A stretch of 64,000 nucleotides of DNA. Origin: Arthrobacter sp. OY3WO11. GTDB taxonomy: Bacteria; Actinomycetota; Actinomycetes; Actinomycetales; Micrococcaceae. The translations under genes were made by a program, and so were the position numbers. Each line of letters begins with the position of its first letter. Within the stretch, counting starts at the first letter, position 1. Under the pieces are notes generated by a model. That model ran no database searches. It saw only the letters and a list, made by a program, of their open reading frames with translations, and had not been told where the DNA came from. Where the stretch lies: NCBI RefSeq assembly GCF_001641125.1, contig NZ_LWLP01000001.1, positions 644,147 through 708,146 of the forward strand, given 5' to 3'. This document shows, piece by piece, positions 49,999 through 58,501 of this stretch.

Positions 49999-50322
49999 AT
50001 GTTGCTTGCGTTTTCTGTCGCCCCGTCGGGCGCCCCCAGCGAAGGTTCCCGGCCCACTGACGCTTCAGTGCACGACGCCGTTGCCGCCGCCGTCAAAATC
50101 GTCCGGGAGTCGGGCCTGCCCAACGCAACGGACTCGATGTTCACCACCATCGAAGGTGAATGGGACGAGGTCTTCGACGTCGTCAAGCGGGCAACGGAGG
50201 CAGTGGGACGGTATGGCAGCCGCGTCTCCCTGGTGATCAAGGCTGATATCCGGCCGGGTTACTCAGGAGAACTGACCGCAAAAGTGGACCGCCTGGAAGA
50301 AGCGCTCGCAGACGGTTCCTGA
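49999..50322 (+). CDS. thiamine-binding/YqgV-like (MTH1187 family) protein
   Basis: A 107-aa protein of the MTH1187/YkoF-like family (thiamine-binding domain). The ferredoxin-like fold is recognised from LLAFSVAPSG, SVHDAVAAAVKIVRESGLP, DSMFTTIEGEWDEVFDVVKRATEAV and RVSLVIKADIRPG. Homologues bind hydroxymethylpyrimidine or thiamine, sometimes with a HMP transporter; no such transporter and no TPP riboswitch is visible here. Therefore ligand binding is inferred from family only. Confidence 0.85.
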   Translation: MLLAFSVAPSGAPSEGSRPTDASVHDAVAAAVKIVRESGLPNATDSMFTTIEGEWDEVFDVVKRATEAVGRYGSRVSLVIKADIRPGYSGELTAKVDRLEEALADGS

Positions 50323-50433
50323 CCCCTCCCGCAGCCCCGGCCCGCCGTCGGCCTTCTCCAATCCCGCCGCCGGCCTTTTCGCCGTCCCCCAACTTCTATG
50401 GACCCCAAGGCTGCCCCGTGCCAAACTGTGGCA

Positions 50434-51111
50434 ATGTTCGAGCACCAGCCCCGGCCGGAGTGGATTGCGGCTGAAGAGTTCCTGTCCCGCGTCGTGGTCC
50501 ATCCCGATCCTGCGCTGCAGCAGGCCATCAGTTCCGCCGCGGAGGCGGGGATGCCTGCCATCGAAGTGGCGCCCAATGCGGGCAAGCTCCTCAAGCTCCT
50601 GGTGCAGCTGACGGGAGCCCGGCGCGTGCTCGAAATTGGCACGCTCGCCGGCTTCAGCACCATCTGGATGGGCCGGGGCCTTCCCTCTGACGGCACCCTT
50701 GTCACCTGCGAATTCCTGCCCAAGCACGCGGAAGTCGCGTGGGCCAACATCGATGCCGCCGGACTGGGGGAGAAGGTGGAGATCCGGCTGGGGCCGGCGC
50801 TGGATACCCTGGCGGCACTGGAGGAGGAAGGCCGGGAGCCCTTCGACTTCATCTTCATCGACGCGGACAAGGAGAACAACAGCCGCTACCTGGACTGGGC
50901 TGTCCGGCTGGGAAGGCCGGGGGCCACGGTGGTCCTGGATAACGCCGTCTGGGAGGGCGCAATCCTGGACCCCCGAATGGACCCGGTCAACGCGCCGGGA
51001 ATCATAGGGGCACTTAAGCTGTTGGGGGAACACCCGCGGCTCGACGCCACCGTCATCCAGACCGTTGGCTCCAAAGGCTGGGACGGTTTCGCGCTTGCAC
51101 GTATCCGGTAG
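50434..51111 (+). CDS. SAM-dependent O-methyltransferase, family 3 (CCoAOMT/COMT-like)
   Basis: A 225-aa methyltransferase related to catechol and caffeoyl-CoA O-methyltransferases. Motif I is VLEIGTLAGFSTIWMGRGLP, followed by VTCEFLPKHAEVAW, the metal-binding aspartates in FDFIFIDADKENN, and VVLDNAVWEGAI, so it is probably Mg-dependent. The start is ambiguous between 50434 and 50398; neither has a clear Shine-Dalgarno. Phenolic substrate not predictable. Transcribed rightward ahead of dps. Confidence 0.85.
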   Translation: MFEHQPRPEWIAAEEFLSRVVVHPDPALQQAISSAAEAGMPAIEVAPNAGKLLKLLVQLTGARRVLEIGTLAGFSTIWMGRGLPSDGTLVTCEFLPKHAEVAWANIDAAGLGEKVEIRLGPALDTLAALEEEGREPFDFIFIDADKENNSRYLDWAVRLGRPGATVVLDNAVWEGAILDPRMDPVNAPGIIGALKLLGEHPRLDATVIQTVGSKGWDGFALARIR

Positions 51112-51147
51112 CACCCGTGCCGGGGGACCTTCCTGCCCCACAAACTG

Positions 51148-51164
51148 CTAAGTGTGCTTAGAAT
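51148..51164 (+). promoter_or_regulatory. CTAAGTGTGCTTAG palindrome overlapping a TAGAAT -10 before dps
   Basis: A perfect 14-base-span palindrome (51148-51161, apart from its GTGT centre) whose right arm runs into TAGAAT (51159-51164). The start codon of dps is 51 bases beyond. No -35 hexamer is recognisable, suggesting activator-dependent or alternative-sigma transcription. Confidence 0.65.
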
Positions 51165-51215
51165 CAGAATCCGGCTGGCGATCAGCCGGACCAACAGCAG
51201 CAGTGGAGGAAACTG

Positions 51216-51695
51216 ATGAAAGCGTCACCCACCCTTGCCGGCAATCTTCAGACGGTGCTTACGGACCTCATTGAGCTGCACCTCCAGGGAAAGCAGGCGC
51301 ACTGGAACCTTGTGGGCACAAACTTCCGCGACCTGCACCTGCAGCTCGACGAGATCATTGCCGCCGCCCGGCTCTTTGCCGACCAGGCCGCAGAAAGGAT
51401 GCGCGCGCTGCATGCCCTTCCGGACGGCCGCAGCAGCACCGTCTCAGCCGGCACCCGGCTGGACGGGTTTCCGGAAGGCCTGACCTCCACGAAGCAGACC
51501 GTCAAACTCATCACGGCCCGGCTGGAACGAACAGTCCAGACTATGCGGGATGTCCACGATGAGGTGGATGAGGAAGACCCCACCAGCGCGGACCTGCTCC
51601 ACGCTGCCATCGAGCGGCTGGAACAGCTGGCCTGGATGGTCAATGCCGAAACCATGGCACCCACAGCGTCCGTCACCGAGCCGGCCGGCACGTAG
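51216..51695 (+). CDS. dps: Dps-family ferritin-like DNA-protection protein
   Basis: A 159-aa Dps that should form a dodecamer, oxidise and store iron using H2O2 and protect DNA. The four-helix ferritin-like fold is clear: LHLQGKQAHWNLVGTNFRDLHLQLDEII with the inter-subunit ferroxidase histidines and acidic residues, then FADQAAERMRALHALPDG. GGAGG stands seven bases before the ATG. It lies 14 bases upstream of an acyl-CoA dehydrogenase-like gene in the same direction, so readthrough into that operon is likely. The promoter belongs to the TAAG-N4-CTTA class. Confidence 0.94.
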   Translation: MKASPTLAGNLQTVLTDLIELHLQGKQAHWNLVGTNFRDLHLQLDEIIAAARLFADQAAERMRALHALPDGRSSTVSAGTRLDGFPEGLTSTKQTVKLITARLERTVQTMRDVHDEVDEEDPTSADLLHAAIERLEQLAWMVNAETMAPTASVTEPAGT

Positions 51696-51709
51696 GCGCC
51701 GCCGTCACG

Positions 51710-52882
51710 ATGCAGGAACTCTCCGAAGAACACAGCGCACAATCCGCCGGGGACGCGTTGCCCGGCCCCAACGCAGCAGTCCGGCTGTCCGCTGGCAGGG
51801 AAGGCCCGGACGGCCTGGATCCCCTGTTCCAGGCCGTCTCCGCCAGCGCCGGTGATGTGCCGGCTTTACTCGAGCTGGCCCGGGAGGCCGGTAAACGGTG
51901 GCCGAAGCCCGGTGAAGGCAGTACCGGGCTGCTTTGGGAACTCCTGGCCACAGTGGCCGCCATTGACGTTGCAGCTGCCCGGATCTTCGAGCCGCATCTT
52001 GATGCCCTGGCGATCCTGGCCCAGGCAGGGCATGATCCTGCCCGTGCCGGCGGGGCCTGGGGTGTTTTTGCGGCGGAAGGTCCAGGCATGCGGCTCGCTG
52101 CGGAAGGCAACGGTTCCGGGGTGCTTTTGAGCGGTGCCAAGCCGTGGTGCTCCCTCGCCCAGGTGCTTGACCACGCGGTGGTCACGGCCCATACGGACGA
52201 CGGCGGCCGTGCAGCTTTCGCAGTTAACCTGCGCCACGCCGGCGTGACCTGCGAGGAACCGGAGTGGGTGGCCAGGGGTCTGCAGGAAATCCCCAGCGGG
52301 ACCGTTCGGTTCGACCGGGTCCCCGCTGAGCTGTTGCAGGGGACCAACTGGTACTTCAGCCGGCCCGGCTTTGCCTGGGGCGGCATGGGGGTGGCCGCGT
52401 GCTGGCTCGGGGGAGCCGTGGGCATCGCCCGCGACTACCGGGATTCCCTCCGTGCCGGAGGTCTTTCCGGCCGGGAGCCGGACCAGGTTGGACTGGCCTC
52501 GCTGGGCGAGCTGGACCGCACCCTGACCTCCGCACTGCAGTATCTTGCAGGAACAGCGGACGGCATAGACCGGCGGGGACAGGGGTCCACTGATCAGGTG
52601 CCCGCTGAACAGCTGCCCGCTGAACAGGTGTCCTCTCAACGGGGGAACGCCGGGCGGGTTTCGCCGTGGAGCGATGCGCTGCGCGTGCGCGGAACCTGTG
52701 CCGCCGCCGTCGAACGCGTTTTGTCTATAGTGGGCAGCAACCGCGGGCCGGGACCGCTGGCATTCGACCGGACGTATGCCAAACGGATGGCTGACCTGGC
52801 ACTGTACGTCCGCCAGCACCACGGCATGCGTGACGACGCCCAGCTGGGCTCCCTGACCTTGAAAGGTGATGCGCCGTGGTGA
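51710..52882 (+). CDS. acyl-CoA dehydrogenase-like flavoprotein
   Basis: A 390-aa protein of the acyl-CoA dehydrogenase superfamily. The helical N-terminal domain (1-115), the beta domain (AAEGNGSGVLLSGAKPWCSLAQVLDHAVVTAH, FAVNLRHAGVTC) and the C-terminal four-helix domain (RVRGTCAAAVERVLSIVGSNRGPG) are visible. The usual catalytic glutamate is not obvious, so the reaction may be a dehydrogenation or hydroxylation of an unusual substrate. It begins 14 bases after dps and overlaps the PIG-L/methyltransferase gene. Identical gene trios with unknown product are the context for its role. Confidence 0.8.
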   Translation: MQELSEEHSAQSAGDALPGPNAAVRLSAGREGPDGLDPLFQAVSASAGDVPALLELAREAGKRWPKPGEGSTGLLWELLATVAAIDVAAARIFEPHLDALAILAQAGHDPARAGGAWGVFAAEGPGMRLAAEGNGSGVLLSGAKPWCSLAQVLDHAVVTAHTDDGGRAAFAVNLRHAGVTCEEPEWVARGLQEIPSGTVRFDRVPAELLQGTNWYFSRPGFAWGGMGVAACWLGGAVGIARDYRDSLRAGGLSGREPDQVGLASLGELDRTLTSALQYLAGTADGIDRRGQGSTDQVPAEQLPAEQVSSQRGNAGRVSPWSDALRVRGTCAAAVERVLSIVGSNRGPGPLAFDRTYAKRMADLALYVRQHHGMRDDAQLGSLTLKGDAPW

Positions 52883-54282
52883 CCTTCCTGCACACCGACG
52901 AGGGGACTGACGAGTCGGCCTGGTGCGTCCGGGGCCTCCCGGTCATTCCTGAGCTCCCGCTGGGTCCGGAGGAGCTTGCCGCGATGCGCTTCCTGGTCCT
53001 TGCCGCACACCCGGACGACGAGACGCTCGGAGCGGGTGGCCTGCTGGCGCGGCTGCACGCCCTCGGCGCAGAGGTGGAGGTGCTGTTGTGCACGGCAGGG
53101 GAGGCCTCGCACCCCGGGTCGGAAACGGTCTCCCGGGAAGAACTGACCGCCAGGCGCCTGGCGGAATTCGCCGCGGCCCTGGACCGTATGGGGCTGAAAG
53201 ACCGCTGGCGGTACCTCGGCCTGCCGGACAGCGGCCTGGCGGAGCGCACTGCGGACATAACCCGTTTGGTCAGGGAAGCCGCCGCAGGGCTGGCCGGTGC
53301 TGCAGTCCGGCTCGCCATTGTTGCGCCTTACCGCGCCGACGGGCATGCCGACCATGATGCCCTCGGAACCGTAGCCGCTGCTGTTGCCGCCGACAATGGT
53401 TACGGGCTGCTGGAGTACCCCATCTGGTACTGGCACTGGGCAACCCCCGGGCACCTGGAATGGCAGTCTTGGGTGAGGTTGCCGCTGGAGCCGGGGGAAC
53501 AGTCCGCAAAAGAACGGGCCATGCAGGAGCATGCCAGCCAGACCAAGCCGCTTTCCCCGCATCCCGGTGACGAAGTCCTGCTGAGCGAATCCTTCCTGCG
53601 GCACTTCTCCCGCCCCTTTGAAACCTTCGCCTGGACTCCTCCGCAGGAGTTTTTGCCCGGAAAAGCAGATGCCCCCGGAACCGTGGCCTACACCAGCAAG
53701 GAAGCCCAGGACATCTTCGACGGTATCCACAACCGGGAACCGGACCCTTGGAAGTACACCACCAGCTGGTACGAGCGGCGGAAGCGCGCGCTGACTGTCG
53801 CAGCATTGCCCTCCGAACACTTTTCCTCGGCGCTCGAGATCGGTTGTTCCATCGGCACGCTGACGGCCGACCTTGCCCCGCGGTGCACCAACCTGCTGGC
53901 CGTAGACGCCAGCGGTGCAGCGTTGGGGCAGGCAGCGGAACGCCTGGCCCCTTTCCCGGGCGTCACCGTCAGGCAGCTGACGCTGCCCGCCGAGTGGCCT
54001 GCCGGGAACTTCGACCTGGTGGTGGTGTCCGAGGTGGGGTACTACCTCTCCGCCGGTGAGCTCGATGCCCTGGTCGAAAAAGTCAGGGACTCGATCCTCC
54101 CTGGCGGCACTCTGCTGCTGTGCCACTGGCGCCACCCCATTTCCGGCTGGGAGCTGGACGGCGAAGCAGTGCACACCCGGGTGCGTGACCGGTTGAAATG
54201 GCCCACCTCCGGCCTCTACCGGGAGCGCGACTTCCTGCTCGAGACCCTGGCAGCGCCAGCGGCGGCGGTGCCTGCGCCTTGA
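52876..54282 (+). CDS. bifunctional PIG-L family deacetylase / NodS-like SAM methyltransferase
   Basis: A 468-aa fusion. The N-terminal domain (about 30-225) is a zinc-dependent PIG-L/LmbE deacetylase with the AHPDDETLGAGG motif and later PYRADGHADHDALG zinc histidine. The C-terminal domain (about 275-450) is a class I methyltransferase resembling rhizobial NodS: WKYTTSWYERRKRALTVAAL, ALEIGCSIGTLTADLAPRC, LAVDASGAAL and FDLVVVSEVGYYL. It should N-deacetylate a glycan or glycolipid and then N-methylate the product. Start is GTG at 52876 or 52879, overlapping the upstream gene; it overlaps the glycosyltransferase by four bases. Confidence 0.9.
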   Translation: MVTFLHTDEGTDESAWCVRGLPVIPELPLGPEELAAMRFLVLAAHPDDETLGAGGLLARLHALGAEVEVLLCTAGEASHPGSETVSREELTARRLAEFAAALDRMGLKDRWRYLGLPDSGLAERTADITRLVREAAAGLAGAAVRLAIVAPYRADGHADHDALGTVAAAVAADNGYGLLEYPIWYWHWATPGHLEWQSWVRLPLEPGEQSAKERAMQEHASQTKPLSPHPGDEVLLSESFLRHFSRPFETFAWTPPQEFLPGKADAPGTVAYTSKEAQDIFDGIHNREPDPWKYTTSWYERRKRALTVAALPSEHFSSALEIGCSIGTLTADLAPRCTNLLAVDASGAALGQAAERLAPFPGVTVRQLTLPAEWPAGNFDLVVVSEVGYYLSAGELDALVEKVRDSILPGGTLLLCHWRHPISGWELDGEAVHTRVRDRLKWPTSGLYRERDFLLETLAAPAAAVPAP

Positions 54283-55022
54283 CTCCCGTCGACAGGGTGG
54301 CCGTGGTGATTCCGGTCCACAATGAGGAGGAACACCTGGGTCGCGCCCTCGCCGGCGTGGAGGCCGCCGCATCGACACTCCGGCAGGTGCACCCCTGCAT
54401 CGACGTCAGGGTTCTCGTGGTCCTCGACTCCTGCACGGACGGTTCTGCGGCCATAGCTTCCGCATACACCGCCCGGAACACGTGCTTCTCTGTCCATGAG
54501 GTCGCCTTTCGAAGCGTGGGAAGGAGCAGGCGGGCGGGAAACTGGCAGGCTCTGGGCGCTGGGGCAGATGCAAGCCCTGGCGCCGGGGCCGGGTTGTGGC
54601 TGGCGAACACCGACGCCGACTCGGTGGTTCCGGACAACTGGCTCGTGGGGCAGCTCGAGTTGGCAGCGGCGGGAGCCGATGCAGTGCTTGGGTCCGTGGA
54701 AGTGGACCCTGCGGGGATGGCACCCGAACTGCTCAGCCGTTGGCAGTCGATGCACTCCTTCGGGGAAGACCACCCGCATGTGTTCGGGGCCAATCTTGGC
54801 GTCCGCGGTTCGGCCTACCTTGTGGCGGGCGGGTTCCCGCGGCACCTCTCGCATGAGGACAGGGTGCTGGCAGGGCGGCTCCGGGACCACGGGTTTGATG
54901 TGAGGGCCACCGACACCATCCGGGTCCGGACGTCCGGCCGCACGCAGGCCCGGGCCCCCAAGGGCTTTGGGGCCTATCTGCGGACGCTTGGGATGGAGAT
55001 CGCATTGGCGCCGGAGGCATAA
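54279..55022 (+). CDS. family 2 glycosyltransferase
   Basis: A 247-aa GT-A fold transferase. The N-terminus VAVVIPVHNEEEHLGRAL, the donor-binding VLVVLDSCTDGSAA and the metal-binding ANTDADSVVPDNWL with acidic residues are present, and HEDRVLAGRLRDHGFDV is the acceptor-side acid region. No membrane helices, so it is likely cytosolic and peripheral. The start is a TTG at 54279 in a TTGA overlap with the preceding gene, consistent with tight operon coupling. It completes a deacetylase/methyltransferase/transferase set reminiscent of Nod factor synthesis. A strong terminator follows. Confidence 0.87.
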   Translation: MTPVDRVAVVIPVHNEEEHLGRALAGVEAAASTLRQVHPCIDVRVLVVLDSCTDGSAAIASAYTARNTCFSVHEVAFRSVGRSRRAGNWQALGAGADASPGAGAGLWLANTDADSVVPDNWLVGQLELAAAGADAVLGSVEVDPAGMAPELLSRWQSMHSFGEDHPHVFGANLGVRGSAYLVAGGFPRHLSHEDRVLAGRLRDHGFDVRATDTIRVRTSGRTQARAPKGFGAYLRTLGMEIALAPEA

Positions 55023-55068
55023 AGGCAGCCCCGTGGCGGCGTGGCTTTGCGGAACGTGGCTTAACGGG

Positions 55069-55102
55069 AAAGGGGCTGCTGCGGTTGCGCAGCAGCCCCT
55101 TT
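55069..55102. terminator. perfect 15-bp hairpin terminator
   Basis: AAAGGGGCTGCTGCG (55069-55083) pairs exactly with 55088-55102 around a GTTG loop. It lies between the rightward glycosyltransferase gene and the leftward csbD gene and can terminate both. Confidence 0.85.
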
Positions 55103-55110
55103 CAGCAGGA

Positions 55111-55287
55111 CTAGTCCTTCCGGAAAGCGTCCTTGACCTTCTCGCCCGCCTGCTTCAAGTCAGCCTTGGCCTGGTCCATCTGGCCTTCAGTCCGGAGGCT
55201 TTCGTCATCAGTTGCCTTGCCGGTTGCTTCTTTGGCCTTGCCGGCCATCTTCTCGGCGGCGTTGTCGATCTTGTCGTCCAAACCCAT
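55111..55287 (-). CDS. CsbD family stress protein
   Basis: A 58-aa hydrophilic protein beginning MGLDDKIDNAAEKMAGKAKE and ending VKDAFRKD, a clear CsbD-family sequence (repeats of GKAKEATGKATDD and QMDQAKADLKQAGEK). CsbD proteins are small, probably disordered general-stress proteins controlled by SigB in Bacillus, of unknown mechanism. GGGAG stands seven bases before the ATG. The gene is bounded by a perfect hairpin 9 bases downstream of its stop. I saw no good TAAG-N4-CTTA site before it. Confidence 0.92.
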   Translation of the reverse strand: MGLDDKIDNAAEKMAGKAKEATGKATDDESLRTEGQMDQAKADLKQAGEKVKDAFRKD

Positions 55288-55423
55288 GGTATTTCTCCCT
55301 TCGGCTGGTGACCTGCGGCGATACGCAGGTCATGCTCCCATGCTAGCCAGCCAGGCGTTGCTACAACAGATGGCTGGCCGCGCCGGGGGAGCTGCTGGAA
55401 GAGGCAAAACCGGCGGGAGAGCG

Positions 55424-55681
55424 TCAGACCAGGTCGGGAGCGCTTGCGACGATGTAATCCGCGGCGGCAGGACCGGTCATGGACAGGTTGTTGCTGTCCG
55501 GGTCAATACCGTGCGTTCCCAGCGCCGCCCACAGCGCTTCCGGCGGCTGAAGCCGGGCTTTGTGGAGAAGGCACCAGCTGGTGTAGAGGCCATACAGCTC
55601 ATCGCGTCCGAGGCCCAGCCCCGGCTCCCTGTCCGCGACAACTGCTTCGGCAAGAAAATCTTCAAAATGTGTAGCAGGCAT
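55424..55681 (-). CDS. small hypothetical protein
   Basis: An 85-aa protein beginning MPATHFEDFLAEAVV. The middle (ELYGLYTSWCLLHKARLQPPEALWAALGTHGI) resembles the short helical module seen at the C-terminus of some phage primase-helicases, with the pattern LY-x2-Y/W-x-WC and LW-x-AL, followed by MTGPAAADYIVASAPDLV. I do not claim that function; there is no phage context. The start has a modest GAG upstream. It reads leftward ahead of csbD with its own promoter region. Confidence 0.6.
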   Translation of the reverse strand: MPATHFEDFLAEAVVADREPGLGLGRDELYGLYTSWCLLHKARLQPPEALWAALGTHGIDPDSNNLSMTGPAAADYIVASAPDLV

Positions 55682-56074
55682 GTTCGCTCATTCGGGCTCG
55701 ACCTTGATGCCGCCGTATCTGCTTCAGCGGCCCTGCCGGCCCCGGAGGGCTCAACAGATTAATCATGAAGGTATGGCAGGGCGGCTCGCTTTGTCCAGTT
55801 AGGCTGCCCAGTCTGGACAGGCAATGCAGGCTCGCGGGAAACCCGGCTGGCCCGGGGCTTCATGGCGGCACGATTGCTCCAAGGGTGCGGCCGGATCGCA
55901 TGGATCGAGGGGGCCGACGGCGACTGGGGGGACTGGCCTCGGTCTCAGAAGAGGCCATCTCACCGCCGGCCCCGCCTGCTCCCGGGTACCTTGATAAACC
56001 CGGGAAACTTAAACAGGACCTCCAAGACAATTTTCTCCCATCTTGAAGGTCCTGCCTAGTCCCCGCGGAATGCC
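55682..56074. other. 393-base gap with hairpins, no convincing gene
   Basis: The gap between two leftward genes contains a TTTGTCCAG/CTGGACA inverted repeat (55791-55821) slightly like the GTCC/GGAC intergenic palindromes at 11.8 and 14.3 kb, and the terminator at 56014-56054. A rightward open frame across it lacks a ribosome binding site and family resemblance. Confidence 0.5.
56014..56054 (-). terminator. intrinsic terminator of the YihY gene
   Basis: CAGGACCTCCAAGA (56014-56027) pairs with TCTTGAAGGTCCTG (56041-56054) with one mismatch; leftward the stem is followed by TTTAAGTTT. It begins 20 bases past the YihY stop. Confidence 0.8.
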
Positions 56075-57292
56075 CTATCGGGCGTCGGTGGCGCCCCGGT
56101 CGTCGTCCCCGCCAAGGGCACGGTCGCGCACCTTGTCCCGGACCCGGTCCCGGTGCGGCTCCGTGGGCTGTTCGGAGTCGCGGCCCCCGTCCTGGTCCCG
56201 GCCATCGTCCGAGGAGTCATCCCCGCCGTTCCCGGCGCTGTACTTCTCACGGATTTCGCGCCCGTGCTGGATGTCCTCTTCCTCCTGCTTCTGCAGCTTT
56301 TCGCTCTTCTTGGTGTCCCTGGGGGGCAGCTGGATGGTTTCCTCAGCCTTGATGCCCGCCTGGAGCTGCCGGCCGCGCTCCATCTCGGCGTCGAACTCTG
56401 CACCGAAGAGCAGCGACATGTTGAGGATCCAGAGCCACAGCAGCATCACGATCACGCCGCCCAGGGCGCCGTAGGTCTTGTTGTAGTTGCCGAAGTTGCC
56501 TACGTAGAAGCCGAAACCCAGCGATGCAAGCAGGAAAATGAATAGGGCAATGCCGGAGCCCATGCTCATCCACTTGAATTTGGGCTGCTTGACGTTGGGG
56601 GTGGCGTAGTAGAGGACGGCGATGATCGCGATGATGAGCACGATCATGACCGGCCATTTGGCGATGTCCCAGATGGTCAGGAATACGCCGCTGAGGCCGA
56701 TCAGGCCGCCCACCGCTTCCGCTACCGGCCCGCTGAGGACCAGCATGCCGGCGAGGATGGCCACGATGACAACGGCCAGGAGCGTGACCACCAGCATTGT
56801 TCCGCGGAGCTTGACGAACGCACGGCCTTCATCCACCTCGTAGACCCGGTTCATGGCACGGCCGAACGCACCAACGTAGCCGGACGCGGACCACAGTGCT
56901 GTGGCAAGGCCAATAACCAGGGTCAGGCCTGCGGCCGGTGCACTTGCCAGGTCTTCCACCACTCCGCCGACCGTGTCAACAGTCTCGGCCGGGACGAAAC
57001 CGCTGACGATTTTCAGGAGCGCGTCGGTGGTCTTCTGCGGGTCACCAAAGAGTCCTATCAGGGACACAAGTGCCAGGATAGCCGGGAACAGCGACAGGAC
57101 CGCGTAGTAGGTCAGGGCGGCAGCCAGGTCCGGACATTGGTCCTTGGTGAACTCCCGGAAGGTTTTCTTGGCGATGTACTTCCAGTTCGGCTTGACCAGA
57201 TCTTTCGGACTCTCCGGCTTCCGGGAATCATCGGGCGCCGGAGCCTGGTCCGCTTTGGCGGTGCTGCTCTCGGATGCGTCATGAGTGGCCAT
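56075..57292 (-). CDS. YihY/virulence factor BrkB family membrane protein
   Basis: A 405-aa inner-membrane protein of the YihY/BrkB family (once called ribonuclease BN). After a 45-residue hydrophilic start come six hydrophobic helices, with family patterns ALTYYAVLSLFPAILALVSLIGLFG, ALWSASGYVGAFGRAMNRVYEVDEGR and GGVIVMLLWLWILNMSLLFGAEFDAEMERGRQ. The last 90 residues are very charged and probably disordered. Function unknown; membership in stress-related clusters of actinobacteria is common. It reads leftward ahead of the DUF3618 trio but is separate, with its own terminator. Confidence 0.92.
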   Translation of the reverse strand: MATHDASESSTAKADQAPAPDDSRKPESPKDLVKPNWKYIAKKTFREFTKDQCPDLAAALTYYAVLSLFPAILALVSLIGLFGDPQKTTDALLKIVSGFVPAETVDTVGGVVEDLASAPAAGLTLVIGLATALWSASGYVGAFGRAMNRVYEVDEGRAFVKLRGTMLVVTLLAVVIVAILAGMLVLSGPVAEAVGGLIGLSGVFLTIWDIAKWPVMIVLIIAIIAVLYYATPNVKQPKFKWMSMGSGIALFIFLLASLGFGFYVGNFGNYNKTYGALGGVIVMLLWLWILNMSLLFGAEFDAEMERGRQLQAGIKAEETIQLPPRDTKKSEKLQKQEEEDIQHGREIREKYSAGNGGDDSSDDGRDQDGGRDSEQPTEPHRDRVRDKVRDRALGGDDDRGATDAR

Positions 57293-57407
57293 GGGGTGTC
57301 CTCTCGATAAGGGGCGAAAAACGGACAGGCCAGCTCCGCGGTTGGCGGGGCCGGCCTGTCAGGGTAGTGCTGGTGCCTTGCTTGTGCCGCGGTGTGCTGG
57401 ATGCCGC

Positions 57408-58070
57408 TTAGGTGTTTTTGACGTTGCCTGCGGCGTCGGTGGTGCGGTCTTTGACGTCGGTGGCGGCGTGTTGGCCTTCGGCTTTGACGTTTTGGGCGGC
57501 GTCGGTGGCGGTGGCCTTGACGTTTTCCATGGCTTCCTGGGCGGGTTCCTTGAGGTCCTGGACCATGTCCTTGGCGGCGTCGGTCACCTGGGTGGCCAGG
57601 GGCTGGGCGGCGGTTTTGAGCTGGTCCGCGGCTTCCCGTTCCTTTTGGCTGGCCGGGATCAGGGAGGAGATCAGCATTCCGGCGCCGAACGCGATCAGGC
57701 CCGCGGCCAGGGGGTTGCCCTGGGTTTTGGCTTTGACCTGGTCCGGTGCGTTGGAGATCGCTGTTCCGGCATCGCCGAGTTTGGCCGCGGCGGTGTCTTT
57801 GGCCCCGTGCAGGGTGTCTCCGGTGGAGTGCAGTGCGTTGCCGGTGTGTCCGGCGCCGCTGTGCATGGTGTCCTGAACACGGGTAGTGGTGTGGTCTGCT
57901 GCGCCCATGATTTTCTCCTTGACCCCGCTGACTGTGTCTTTAAGCTTGTCGGTCTGGCGGTGGACGATGTTTGAGGGGGTGACTTTGTCGGCCACGGCGT
58001 CAACGTTGGTGCCCAGGCGCGCGCGGGTGGCTTCTATGTCTGAACGGATTGCGTCCGGGTTATCGCTCAT
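57408..58070 (-). CDS. DUF3618 protein with amphipathic (apolipoprotein-like) repeats
   Basis: A 220-aa protein. The DUF3618 N-terminus DAIRSDIEATRARLGTNVDAVADKV is clear, followed by KLKDTVSGVKEKIMG. A single hydrophobic segment (GNPLAAGLIAFGAGMLISSLIP) lies near residues 117-138, and the C-terminal 75 residues are Ala/Lys-rich amphipathic repeats of about 11 residues (DAAKDMVQDLKEPAQEAMENVKATATDAAQ), like LEA or apolipoproteins. Such repeats fit desiccation or membrane stress, by analogy. Start ATG overlaps the Holin-X stop by four bases. Confidence 0.9.
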   Translation of the reverse strand: MSDNPDAIRSDIEATRARLGTNVDAVADKVTPSNIVHRQTDKLKDTVSGVKEKIMGAADHTTTRVQDTMHSGAGHTGNALHSTGDTLHGAKDTAAAKLGDAGTAISNAPDQVKAKTQGNPLAAGLIAFGAGMLISSLIPASQKEREAADQLKTAAQPLATQVTDAAKDMVQDLKEPAQEAMENVKATATDAAQNVKAEGQHAATDVKDRTTDAAGNVKNT

Positions 58071-58501
58071 CGGTTTACCTCACCTGGTTTTAGGGTTGGG
58101 GGTATTTCGGACAGGGTTTCGCTGGTCTGGGGCAGGCCCTTGACCTGTTTGAGTTCCTTGCGGCCGATCGAGGCCAGGACCGCGGCGATGATGCCCCAGA
58201 TCACGGCGACGATCAGGGCGGCCCAGCCCAGTGGCATCAGGGCGCCCAGGGCGAACATCAGGCCCAGGGACAGGAAGATCAGGACGAAGTGTCCTGCCAC
58301 GCCTGCCCCGGCGAGCATGCCCGCGCCCTTGCCCGCCTTGGTGGCGGACTGTTTGGCCTCGGCCTTGGCCAGCTCGACTTCCTGGCGCATGAGCGTGGAC
58401 AGGTCACGGGTCACGTCCCCGAGCAGCTCACCCAGCGAGGCGTTATCAGCCTTCTGGTGCGCCTCACTCGGAGCGGGTTCCGGAATCGAACTACTCATCA
58501 C
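58067..58501 (-). CDS. actinobacterial Holin-X family membrane protein
   Basis: A 144-aa two-helix membrane protein of the PF07332 (phage holin-like, Holin_X) family. SLGELLGDVTRDLSTLMRQEVELAKAEAKQSATKAGKGAG is the family N-terminal signature, then two helices (AGVAGHFVLIFLSLGLMFALGALM and GWAALIVAVIWGIIAAVLASIG). Despite the family name there is no lysis gene or phage. It is in an operon: a 4-base overlap with the upstream gene and a 4-base overlap with the DUF3618 gene. The start is GTG/ATG at 58501/58498. Confidence 0.88.
   Translation of the reverse strand: MMSSSIPEPAPSEAHQKADNASLGELLGDVTRDLSTLMRQEVELAKAEAKQSATKAGKGAGMLAGAGVAGHFVLIFLSLGLMFALGALMPLGWAALIVAVIWGIIAAVLASIGRKELKQVKGLPQTSETLSEIPPTLKPGEVNR

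Follow-up and report, generated by a model that had tools for sequence, protein, structure and literature searches.

A compact, patchily distributed four-function gene cassette for putative amino-sugar tailoring in Arthrobacter sp. OY3WO11 and other bacteria

What is made by a locus in which a family 2 glycosyltransferase (GT2), a deacetylase fused to a NodS-like methyltransferase and a flavoprotein of the acyl-CoA dehydrogenase (ACAD) superfamily are encoded by three overlapping genes? The question is raised by a 64,000 nucleotide stretch of Arthrobacter sp. OY3WO11 (contig NZ_LWLP01000001.1, positions 644,147 to 708,146; hereafter the window), for which a preliminary description had proposed a Nod factor-like glycolipid pathway. 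The gene structure given there, with overlaps of 4 to 7 bases, agrees in coordinates and strand with the locus as analysed here: all three genes are on one strand, with seven bases shared by the flavoenzyme and fusion genes and four by the fusion and glycosyltransferase genes. The domain set was likewise borne out, both by Pfam and by a conserved operon-like grouping. The trio is the fused actinobacterial form of a compact, patchily spread cassette of four functions, namely the flavoenzyme, a PIG-L deacetylase, a NodS-like methyltransferase and a GT2 glycosyltransferase.

Relatives of the locus were collected with a methyltransferase profile derived from an 11-row alignment (A1), and the best 80 of at least 585 confirmed relatives (596 stretches read) in named genomes were compared with 66 control regions of 20 kb, for which 37 of the 80 loci supplied the contigs, with two own-genome regions left out. 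The 80 loci span 35 genus labels, including Burkholderiales, Xanthomonadales and many Actinomycetota, and are skewed towards relatives of the first row of the profile (Cupriavidus) and towards Pseudomonas (21/80). Family hidden Markov models (HMMs) recognised the flavoenzyme in 79, the PIG-L deacetylase in 77 and the glycosyltransferase in 64 of these methyltransferase-found loci, while each of the four families was matched only once in the 66 control regions, weakly and in four different regions. The grouping is thus far beyond chance. All four genes lie within 4 kb in 61 loci, among them one of Achromobacter with a weak PIG-L match, and the commonest order, flavoenzyme - PIG-L - NodS-like methyltransferase - GT2, is that of the window (51/80). 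Fifteen of the remaining loci have no glycosyltransferase, three have no PIG-L deacetylase and one is ended by its contig before the flavoenzyme. The deacetylase and methyltransferase form a single open reading frame (ORF) in eleven loci, all of Actinomycetota (the genera Cryobacterium, Cellulomonas, Salinibacterium, Glaciihabitans, Microbacterium and Jatrophihabitans), and are otherwise encoded by separate neighbouring genes.

No further constant partner was found by an all-against-all ORF comparison of the 80 loci, in which no non-cassette family reached more than 12 loci or nine genus labels. The widest clusters are common short-chain dehydrogenase/reductase, ABC ATPase and LysR types, while LigD, Ku and a Dps-type ferritin are more specific recurring neighbours; ten representatives of the neighbour clusters were annotated. 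A defence system was also considered and set aside, as PADLOC gave no convincing match, the single one (mads_2, 44 bits) covering the methyltransferase part only.

The phylogenetic profiling suggested in the preliminary description upholds the inheritance of the methyltransferase and flavoenzyme as a pair. Among 296 genomes of the phylum, both are present in 34, one alone in two plus two and neither in 258 (Fisher p ~8e-40, with kinship ignored). Each is thus found in 36 genomes, covering 26 of 192 genera, and where they co-occur they lie on the same strand and at most 2.5 kb apart in all 34 genomes. The threshold in this survey was an e-value of at most 1e-25 for both families, and the best 11 and 7 candidates per genome were scored, such that a few matches may have escaped. 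Within the genus, the methyltransferase profile is positive in 138 of 198 genomes (~70%), and the whole fusion protein is matched (e-value < 1e-100) in 28 of 37 genomes, with a flavoenzyme and a glycosyltransferase adjacent at 28/28 loci. The fusion gene is split or decaying in some of these relatives: it is interrupted in three of the 28, by two in-frame TAG codons (G018), one TAA codon (G032) and a frame break (G025). A flavoenzyme match in a further genome of the genus with no methyltransferase (G002:C15:155604-156413; profile positions 119-345 of 347) is perhaps a cassette remnant.

The cassette ranges over at least four phyla, the Actinomycetota, Pseudomonadota, Deinococcota and Cyanobacteriota, and is also carried on plasmids. 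Sixteen plasmid loci, from Alphaproteobacteria, Acinetobacter, Legionella lytica, Deinococcus, Rubrobacter, Nostoc and others, encode the flavoenzyme (16), the methyltransferase (16), PIG-L (15, that of Cupriavidus being weak and set apart) and the glycosyltransferase (13). Several variants were observed. On the Legionella lytica plasmid, a gene annotated as a hypothetical protein (L042 10873-11805) and located after the glycosyltransferase encodes the cassette flavoenzyme by HMM (e-value: 9e-69), while on that of Acinetobacter soli the flavoenzyme match extends over two frames with no listed gene (L036 7959-8963) and may be broken. The Deinococcus flavoenzyme (L037 3172-5511, L227 3427-5799) is annotated with 779 amino acids in D. 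radiodurans and is of similar length in D. wulumuqiensis; its ~420 N-terminal residues in L037 have no Pfam match at an e-value of 0.001, and we presume, judging by eye, that this extension is perhaps glycoside hydrolase-like. Two Pseudomonas loci encode a second PIG-L-like protein after the methyltransferase (L049 10859-11615, L087 10831-11587), and no cassette-type glycosyltransferase was found there. On the Novosphingobium and Sphingobium plasmids (L043, L224), the cassette is preceded by a catalase gene and by three additional genes annotated as glycosyltransferases, which in L043 are assigned by Pfam to GT4, GT2 and, weakly and below the cut-off, GT28. These extra enzymes suggest a longer glycan in the sphingomonads.

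The fusion protein comprises a PIG-L/LmbE-type de-N-acetylase domain at approximately residues 37-250 (PF02585; residues 40-169; 91.5 bits; cut-off: 28.2) and a class I S-adenosylmethionine (SAM) methyltransferase domain at approximately residues 280-460, which contains the NodS match (PF05401; residues 290-422) and also exceeds the cut-offs of PF08242, PF13649 and PF08241. Text patterns locate the PIG-L motifs HPDD and HxDH in 75 and 77 of 77 cassette loci, respectively, and the H-x-x-D spacing of the former fits the metal ligands His49 and Asp52, which an extract of PMC4101496 gives, together with His157, as those proposed for rat PIG-L. The best PDB relatives of the PIG-L profile are diacetylchitobiose deacetylases (e-value: 5.5e-23), with MshB behind (e-value: 4e-17). 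In the methyltransferase domain, the SAM-binding motif E-x-G-C-x-x-G and the elements D-P-W, Y-E and S-E..Y are invariant in A1, and strict text patterns recover the first three in 66, 65 and 78 of the 80 loci. Its closest solved relative is 4isc (e-value: 1.4e-42 to the window protein and 8.8e-60 to the profile), which we take to be derived from Pseudomonas syringae, followed by NodS (3ofj; e-value: 2.6e-29) and phosphoethanolamine N-methyltransferases. The solved relatives after 4isc are thus N-methyltransferases, lending support to N-methylation by the cassette enzyme, to which we assign an even chance.

The flavoenzyme contains an ACAD middle domain (PF02770; 34.0 bits; cut-off: 33.3), and its AlphaFold model (predicted local distance difference test, pLDDT, 87.3) adopts the ACAD fold, with Z scores of 31-33 to many ACADs over ~330 residues. 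The superfamily in the earlier acyl-CoA dehydrogenase-like label therefore stands, and within it the enzyme leans towards the flavin monooxygenases rather than the acyl-CoA dehydrogenases, with DszC nearer and the amino-sugar N-oxygenases further away. In a profile search of the PDB the best matches are 5gj7/5z8t and DszC/TdsC, followed by the ACAD entries 2dvl, 7xp7, CarC and 1rx0 together with MsuC and, lower down, by KijD3 (profile A2; e-value: 1e-9), DnmZ (2e-8) and nitrososynthase (3e-6). Of the top pair, 5gj7 is titled a putative acyl-CoA dehydrogenase and its near twin 5z8t a flavin-containing monooxygenase. Foldseek fills ranks 1-17 with 5gj7, DszC/TdsC, nitrososynthase, KijD3, DnmZ and Rv3094c and lists any other ACAD only from rank 18 onwards, and the titles of its matches also give nitrososynthase and a deoxythymidine diphosphate (dTDP)-amino-sugar ligand. 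A K-x-[FW]-C-S stretch is common to the flavoenzyme and DszC/TdsC, followed by Leu in the window protein and Gly in many others. At the aligned position of the ACAD catalytic glutamate, the 79 cassette flavoenzymes have Ser (60), His (13) or, once each, Gly, Gln, Tyr or Cys, with two unreadable, and Glu or Asp is present in 0/77 readable loci. Of seven ACAD-superfamily proteins from the window's own genome included in the alignment, six have the catalytic EGT/EGS context, whereas cassette members show R-Q-H/S there. Around a second known catalytic position, presumably that of the isovaleryl-CoA dehydrogenase type, no Glu occurs in the surrounding stretch of the six cassette rows shown. An oxygenase is on balance favored over a dehydrogenase, on account of the best profile relatives, the Foldseek order and the replaced catalytic residue, with no separation by VIA-align. 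The enzyme probably acts as a flavin-dependent monooxygenase or oxidase on an amine or another site of a glycoside; that the oxidation falls at nitrogen is doubtful.

The glycosyltransferase (PF00535; 48.6 bits) is predicted to be a compact GT-A domain of 247 residues (pLDDT 91.5), and is probably soluble. Its residues D112, D114, E193 and D194, of the DxD and ED motifs, are invariant in alignment A6, and the deacetylase, methyltransferase and glycosyltransferase motifs are kept across most of the 80 loci. The model is similar to WrtF, heparosan synthase and TarS (Z ~20-22), while a PDB search with the single sequence gave no match and one with the profile gave distant GT2 enzymes only.

The proximity of dps, which ends 14 bases before the first cassette gene as previously noted, had led to the proposal of a shared stress promoter. 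This arrangement can be local at best. Of the 28 genus loci, ten have dps as the nearest recognised gene upstream, 13 have a homologue of the window's O-methyltransferase there and five have neither; as the flavoenzyme and glycosyltransferase are adjacent at all 28, the cassette is the constant unit and dps is not. As a constant partner dps was therefore discarded, despite a modest enrichment elsewhere (6/80 loci against 0/66 controls). A scan for the sigma-70 consensus found no promoter-like site in positions 50300-55500, though such a consensus is not very telling in an organism of this kind. Stress-type genes (catalase, Dps or ferritin-like, LigD/Ku, trehalose enzymes, CsbD, PRC-barrel and general stress proteins) were seen by eye, without a control, within 6-9 kb of 12 of 15 annotated plasmid loci. 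A marker panel built from the first ten annotated plasmid loci and the window was matched in 21/80 loci against 4/66 controls (p 0.0009), and, enlarged after this count had been seen, in 23/80 against 5/66 (p 0.0009), while four ordinary families, drawn from clusters in the test loci, showed no enrichment. The mean fraction per genus is 21%, against 7% in the controls. The CsbD and YihY markers had no match in the 80 loci or 66 controls, which carries little weight for such short proteins. The enrichment is modest and leans on Pseudomonas, and for this reason we have lowered the likelihood of a stress role for the product, which we regard as conceivable but somewhat short of evens.

The explanation that best accounts for the evidence as a whole is that the cassette makes a small N-acetylglucosamine (GlcNAc)-type glycoside which is de-N-acetylated, N-methylated and oxidised by the flavoenzyme; as a complete scheme we advance it tentatively, at just under an even chance, while an amino-glycoside product as such is somewhat more likely than not. 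The evidence bears directly on linkage, joint inheritance, motifs and fold, from which we infer the substrates, the order of the steps, the positions of methylation and oxidation and the physiological role. The GT2 enzyme would link an N-acetylhexosamine (GlcNAc being the likeliest) with a small acceptor, either partner being transferred to the other, after which the metal-dependent PIG-L hydrolase would remove the N-acetyl group and free an amine. This amine would be methylated by the NodS-like enzyme, to which the fusion would channel it, and the flavoenzyme would perform an oxygen-dependent oxidation of the same molecule, plausibly at nitrogen in the manner of the KijD3/ORF36-type N-oxygenases. 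Such a route would yield an N-modified amino-glycoside that is small, stays within the cell and probably benefits it during stationary phase or stress. The role of the glycosyltransferase is the least certain, owing to its losses and to its displaced or reversed positions.

An N-acetylated sugar substrate is also suggested by two single cases. In Rubrobacter, no PIG-L gene was found within 9 kb and a carbohydrate esterase family 4 (CE4) polysaccharide deacetylase adjoins the flavoenzyme, while in Gloeothece a GT2, a methyltransferase and a CE4 domain are fused. The former locus, on a plasmid of Rubrobacter indicoceani (L038 7236-11887), has the CE4 gene before the flavoenzyme and a pyridine-nucleotide oxidoreductase between the methyltransferase and glycosyltransferase; the latter, on a plasmid of Gloeothece verrucosa (L201 3955-7431), encodes a single protein of 1158 amino acids with GT2, NodS-like methyltransferase and CE4 domains. 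CE4 as a general substitute for PIG-L was rejected, as three CE4 queries found none near the 80 loci, and the Rubrobacter case therefore stands alone.

Several observations weigh against the proposed N-modified amino-glycoside pathway. PIG-L enzymes, like class I methyltransferases, accept a wide range of substrates, the glycosyltransferase was not found in 16/80 loci (some cut by contig ends) and is displaced or reversed in others, and the additional glycosyltransferases of the sphingomonad cassettes would fit a larger glycan. For the flavoenzyme, the ordinary ACADs 2dvl, 7xp7, CarC and 1rx0 exceed the amino-sugar N-oxygenases by profile, the narrower profile A5 no longer lists KijD3 at 1e-4, the VIA-align Z scores are nearly tied (isovaleryl-CoA dehydrogenase: 32.9; TdsC: 32.3; DszC: 31.6), and the loss of the catalytic glutamate is read from sequence alignment and not from superposition. 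The stress markers, furthermore, are found in only 9/37 loci against 5/66 controls when genomes are matched (p 0.02), and the genus labels with any marker hardly differ (10/35 against 5/22).

The same enzymes might instead decorate a polysaccharide, lipid-linked oligosaccharide or glycoprotein at the cell surface. The one to three further glycosyltransferases beside the sphingomonad cassettes and the likeness of the GT model to WrtF, TarS/TarP and heparosan synthase domains would suit such a role, while the compact single GT-A domain and the lack of a polymerase, flippase or carrier family among the annotated clusters, with no family beyond 12/80 loci, argue against it, and we consider it unlikely. 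A secreted, antibiotic-like amino-sugar compound is a reading recommended by the patchy spread (36/296 phylum genomes) and by KijD3, ORF36 and DnmZ, which act in antibiotic sugar pathways. However, no exporter, resistance gene, polyketide synthase or non-ribosomal peptide synthetase is a constant neighbour, the ABC ATPase type is found in 9/80 loci against 14/66 controls, and presence in 138/198 genomes of the genus would be unusual for an antibiotic, making this distinctly unlikely. That the flavoenzyme is after all a true acyl-CoA or acyl-ACP dehydrogenase, preparing the lipid of an amino-glycolipid, accords with its fold (Z 31-33 to isovaleryl- and short-chain acyl-CoA dehydrogenases), its PF02770 match and the several ACAD entries that score well by profile. 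It is improbable in view of the replacement of the catalytic glutamate by Ser, His, Gly, Gln, Tyr or Cys in all 77 readable loci, the lack of Glu around the presumed second position in six cassette rows and the want of any constant acyl-related partner.

PIG-L enzymes serve both known thiol pathways, those of mycothiol and bacillithiol, and BshB1 and MshB are the best NCBIfam matches of the cassette PIG-L domain, so that a thiol or redox cofactor, in which the deacetylated glucosamine moiety bears a reactive group, may be envisaged. It is very improbable, as the domain falls far below the equivalog cut-offs of both (MshB: 38.8 of 224.35 bits; BshB1: 45.6 of 182.5 bits), there is no constant partner that might act as a cysteine ligase and many Gram-negative bacteria carry the cassette too. 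The Nod factor-like pathway itself, in which the glycosyltransferase would build a chitin-like oligomer to be deacetylated, N-methylated and N-acylated into a signal, matches the chemical logic of the trio; only one solved structure is closer to the methyltransferase than NodS, and the cyanobacterial GT2/NodS-like/CE4 fusion shows that the combination recurs. Nevertheless, in a quick tree of 54 cassette, five NodS and eight own-genome outgroup rows, with long outgroup branches and an unsure root, the cassette methyltransferases form one clade (Shimodaira-Hasegawa-like approximate likelihood ratio test, SH-aLRT, 95) and NodS another (98), and an origin of NodS from within the cassette clade was accordingly dismissed. 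The nearest named row to the window methyltransferase is that of Arthrobacter hankyongi. Against the NodS equivalog NF041650 (cut-off: 300 bits), the window protein scores 63.7, a Cupriavidus cassette member 58.7 and Sinorhizobium NodS 362 bits. In each of five rhizobial nod regions NodS adjoins NodU, NodA accompanies it in four (the fifth stretch being short), and no cassette was seen in their annotated stretches. The NodA model PF02474 matched neither the own genome nor the control genomes and so carries no weight either way. With PIG-L in the place of NodB and no extra family in more than 12/80 loci, the Nod factor label could not be retained, and a signal of this type is barely credible. 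Of the product earlier guessed at, a small N-methylated amino-glycan is still the leading candidate, while the glycolipid is without support, as neither acyltransferases nor lipid genes constantly accompany the cassette.

The features of the locus and its surroundings, in a host genome of 4.5 Mb, are given in Table 1. The convergent gene is presumed from its sequence to be CsbD-like, and a Pandoraea cassette record annotates a nearby CsbD gene. It belongs to a series of small or membrane proteins on the - strand (55111-58501), including a product at 56075-57292 that we presume to be YihY/BrkB-like; the Sphingomonas (L225) and Roseomonas (L226) loci likewise have a gene annotated as YihY close to the cassette.

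Table 1. Cassette genes and immediate neighbours in the window
Feature	Position	Strand	Product length and start	Basis
ACAD-fold flavoenzyme gene	51710..52882	+	390 aa, ATG	PF02770, AlphaFold model, profile and Foldseek relatives
PIG-L + NodS-like methyltransferase fusion gene	52876..54282	+	468 aa, GTG	PF02585, PF05401
GT2 (GT-A) glycosyltransferase gene	54279..55022	+	247 aa, TTG	PF00535, model
dps (Ferritin, PF00210), upstream neighbour, possible but non-conserved partner	51216..51695	+		Pfam
O-methyltransferase (PF01596), syntenic upstream neighbour in the genus	50398..51111	+		Pfam
CsbD-like small stress protein, convergent with the cassette	55111..55287	-		Reading frame; name presumed

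No description of the cassette was found in the open-licence papers searched, and none of eight cassette proteins (three from the window and five from other genera) reached an NCBIfam cut-off. We rate it as an amino-sugar tailoring cluster, notable for its breadth and its unusual combination of enzymes, which occurs in Pseudomonas, Burkholderiales, sphingomonads, Deinococcus, Nostoc and others and yet is without a curated family. Should it indeed make an N-modified amino-glycoside, a class of bacterial metabolite would still await description, and the cassette would offer a ready set of enzymes for the N-methylation, and perhaps N-oxidation, of amino sugars. A bolder version, that across phyla the pathway makes an N-methylated and N-oxidised (hydroxylamine or nitrone) amino-glycoside which acts broadly inside the cell, as a protectant or redox buffer, during survival states, is quite unlikely; if true, it would constitute an overlooked counterpart to trehalose or mycothiol.

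The cassette and its enzymes can be set beside known systems. The cassette deacetylase shares a PIG-L domain with HPDD and HxDH motifs with diacetylchitobiose deacetylase and MshB/BshB, and differs from them in its fusion to a methyltransferase in many Actinomycetota and in scoring below the curated equivalog cut-offs. The flavoenzyme has the ACAD fold in common with DszC/TdsC, KijD3, ORF36 (nitrososynthase) and DnmZ, which lead its Foldseek list, DszC/TdsC also being near the top of its profile list. It shares only 15-22% identity with enzymes of the DszC/KijD3 type, and cassette members carry a C-terminal signature of their own, DL..RQ.H..RD, which is reduced to DL..RQ in the Alphaproteobacterial rows of alignment A2. 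For the methyltransferase, the closest solved relative, 4isc, is titled only 'Methyltransferase' in the PDB listing, without a function. The Gloeothece protein WP_013334356.1, annotated as a trifunctional glycosyltransferase/class I SAM-dependent methyltransferase/polysaccharide deacetylase, likewise unites a GT2, a NodS-like methyltransferase and a glycan deacetylase, but its deacetylase is of the CE4 family, it includes no flavoenzyme and its methyltransferase falls outside the cassette clade. Finally, the tailoring of Nod factors by NodC (GT2), the NodB deacetylase and NodS follows the same logic of glycosyl transfer, de-N-acetylation and methylation by a NodS-related SAM-dependent enzyme, whereas in the cassette PIG-L replaces the CE4 enzyme NodB, the glycosyltransferase is a small single domain, a flavoenzyme is added and there is no constant partner for acylation. 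The cassette therefore resembles the Nod factor system in its logic at most and is not a member of it, and one of its enzymes is a relative of NodS that works outside symbiosis.

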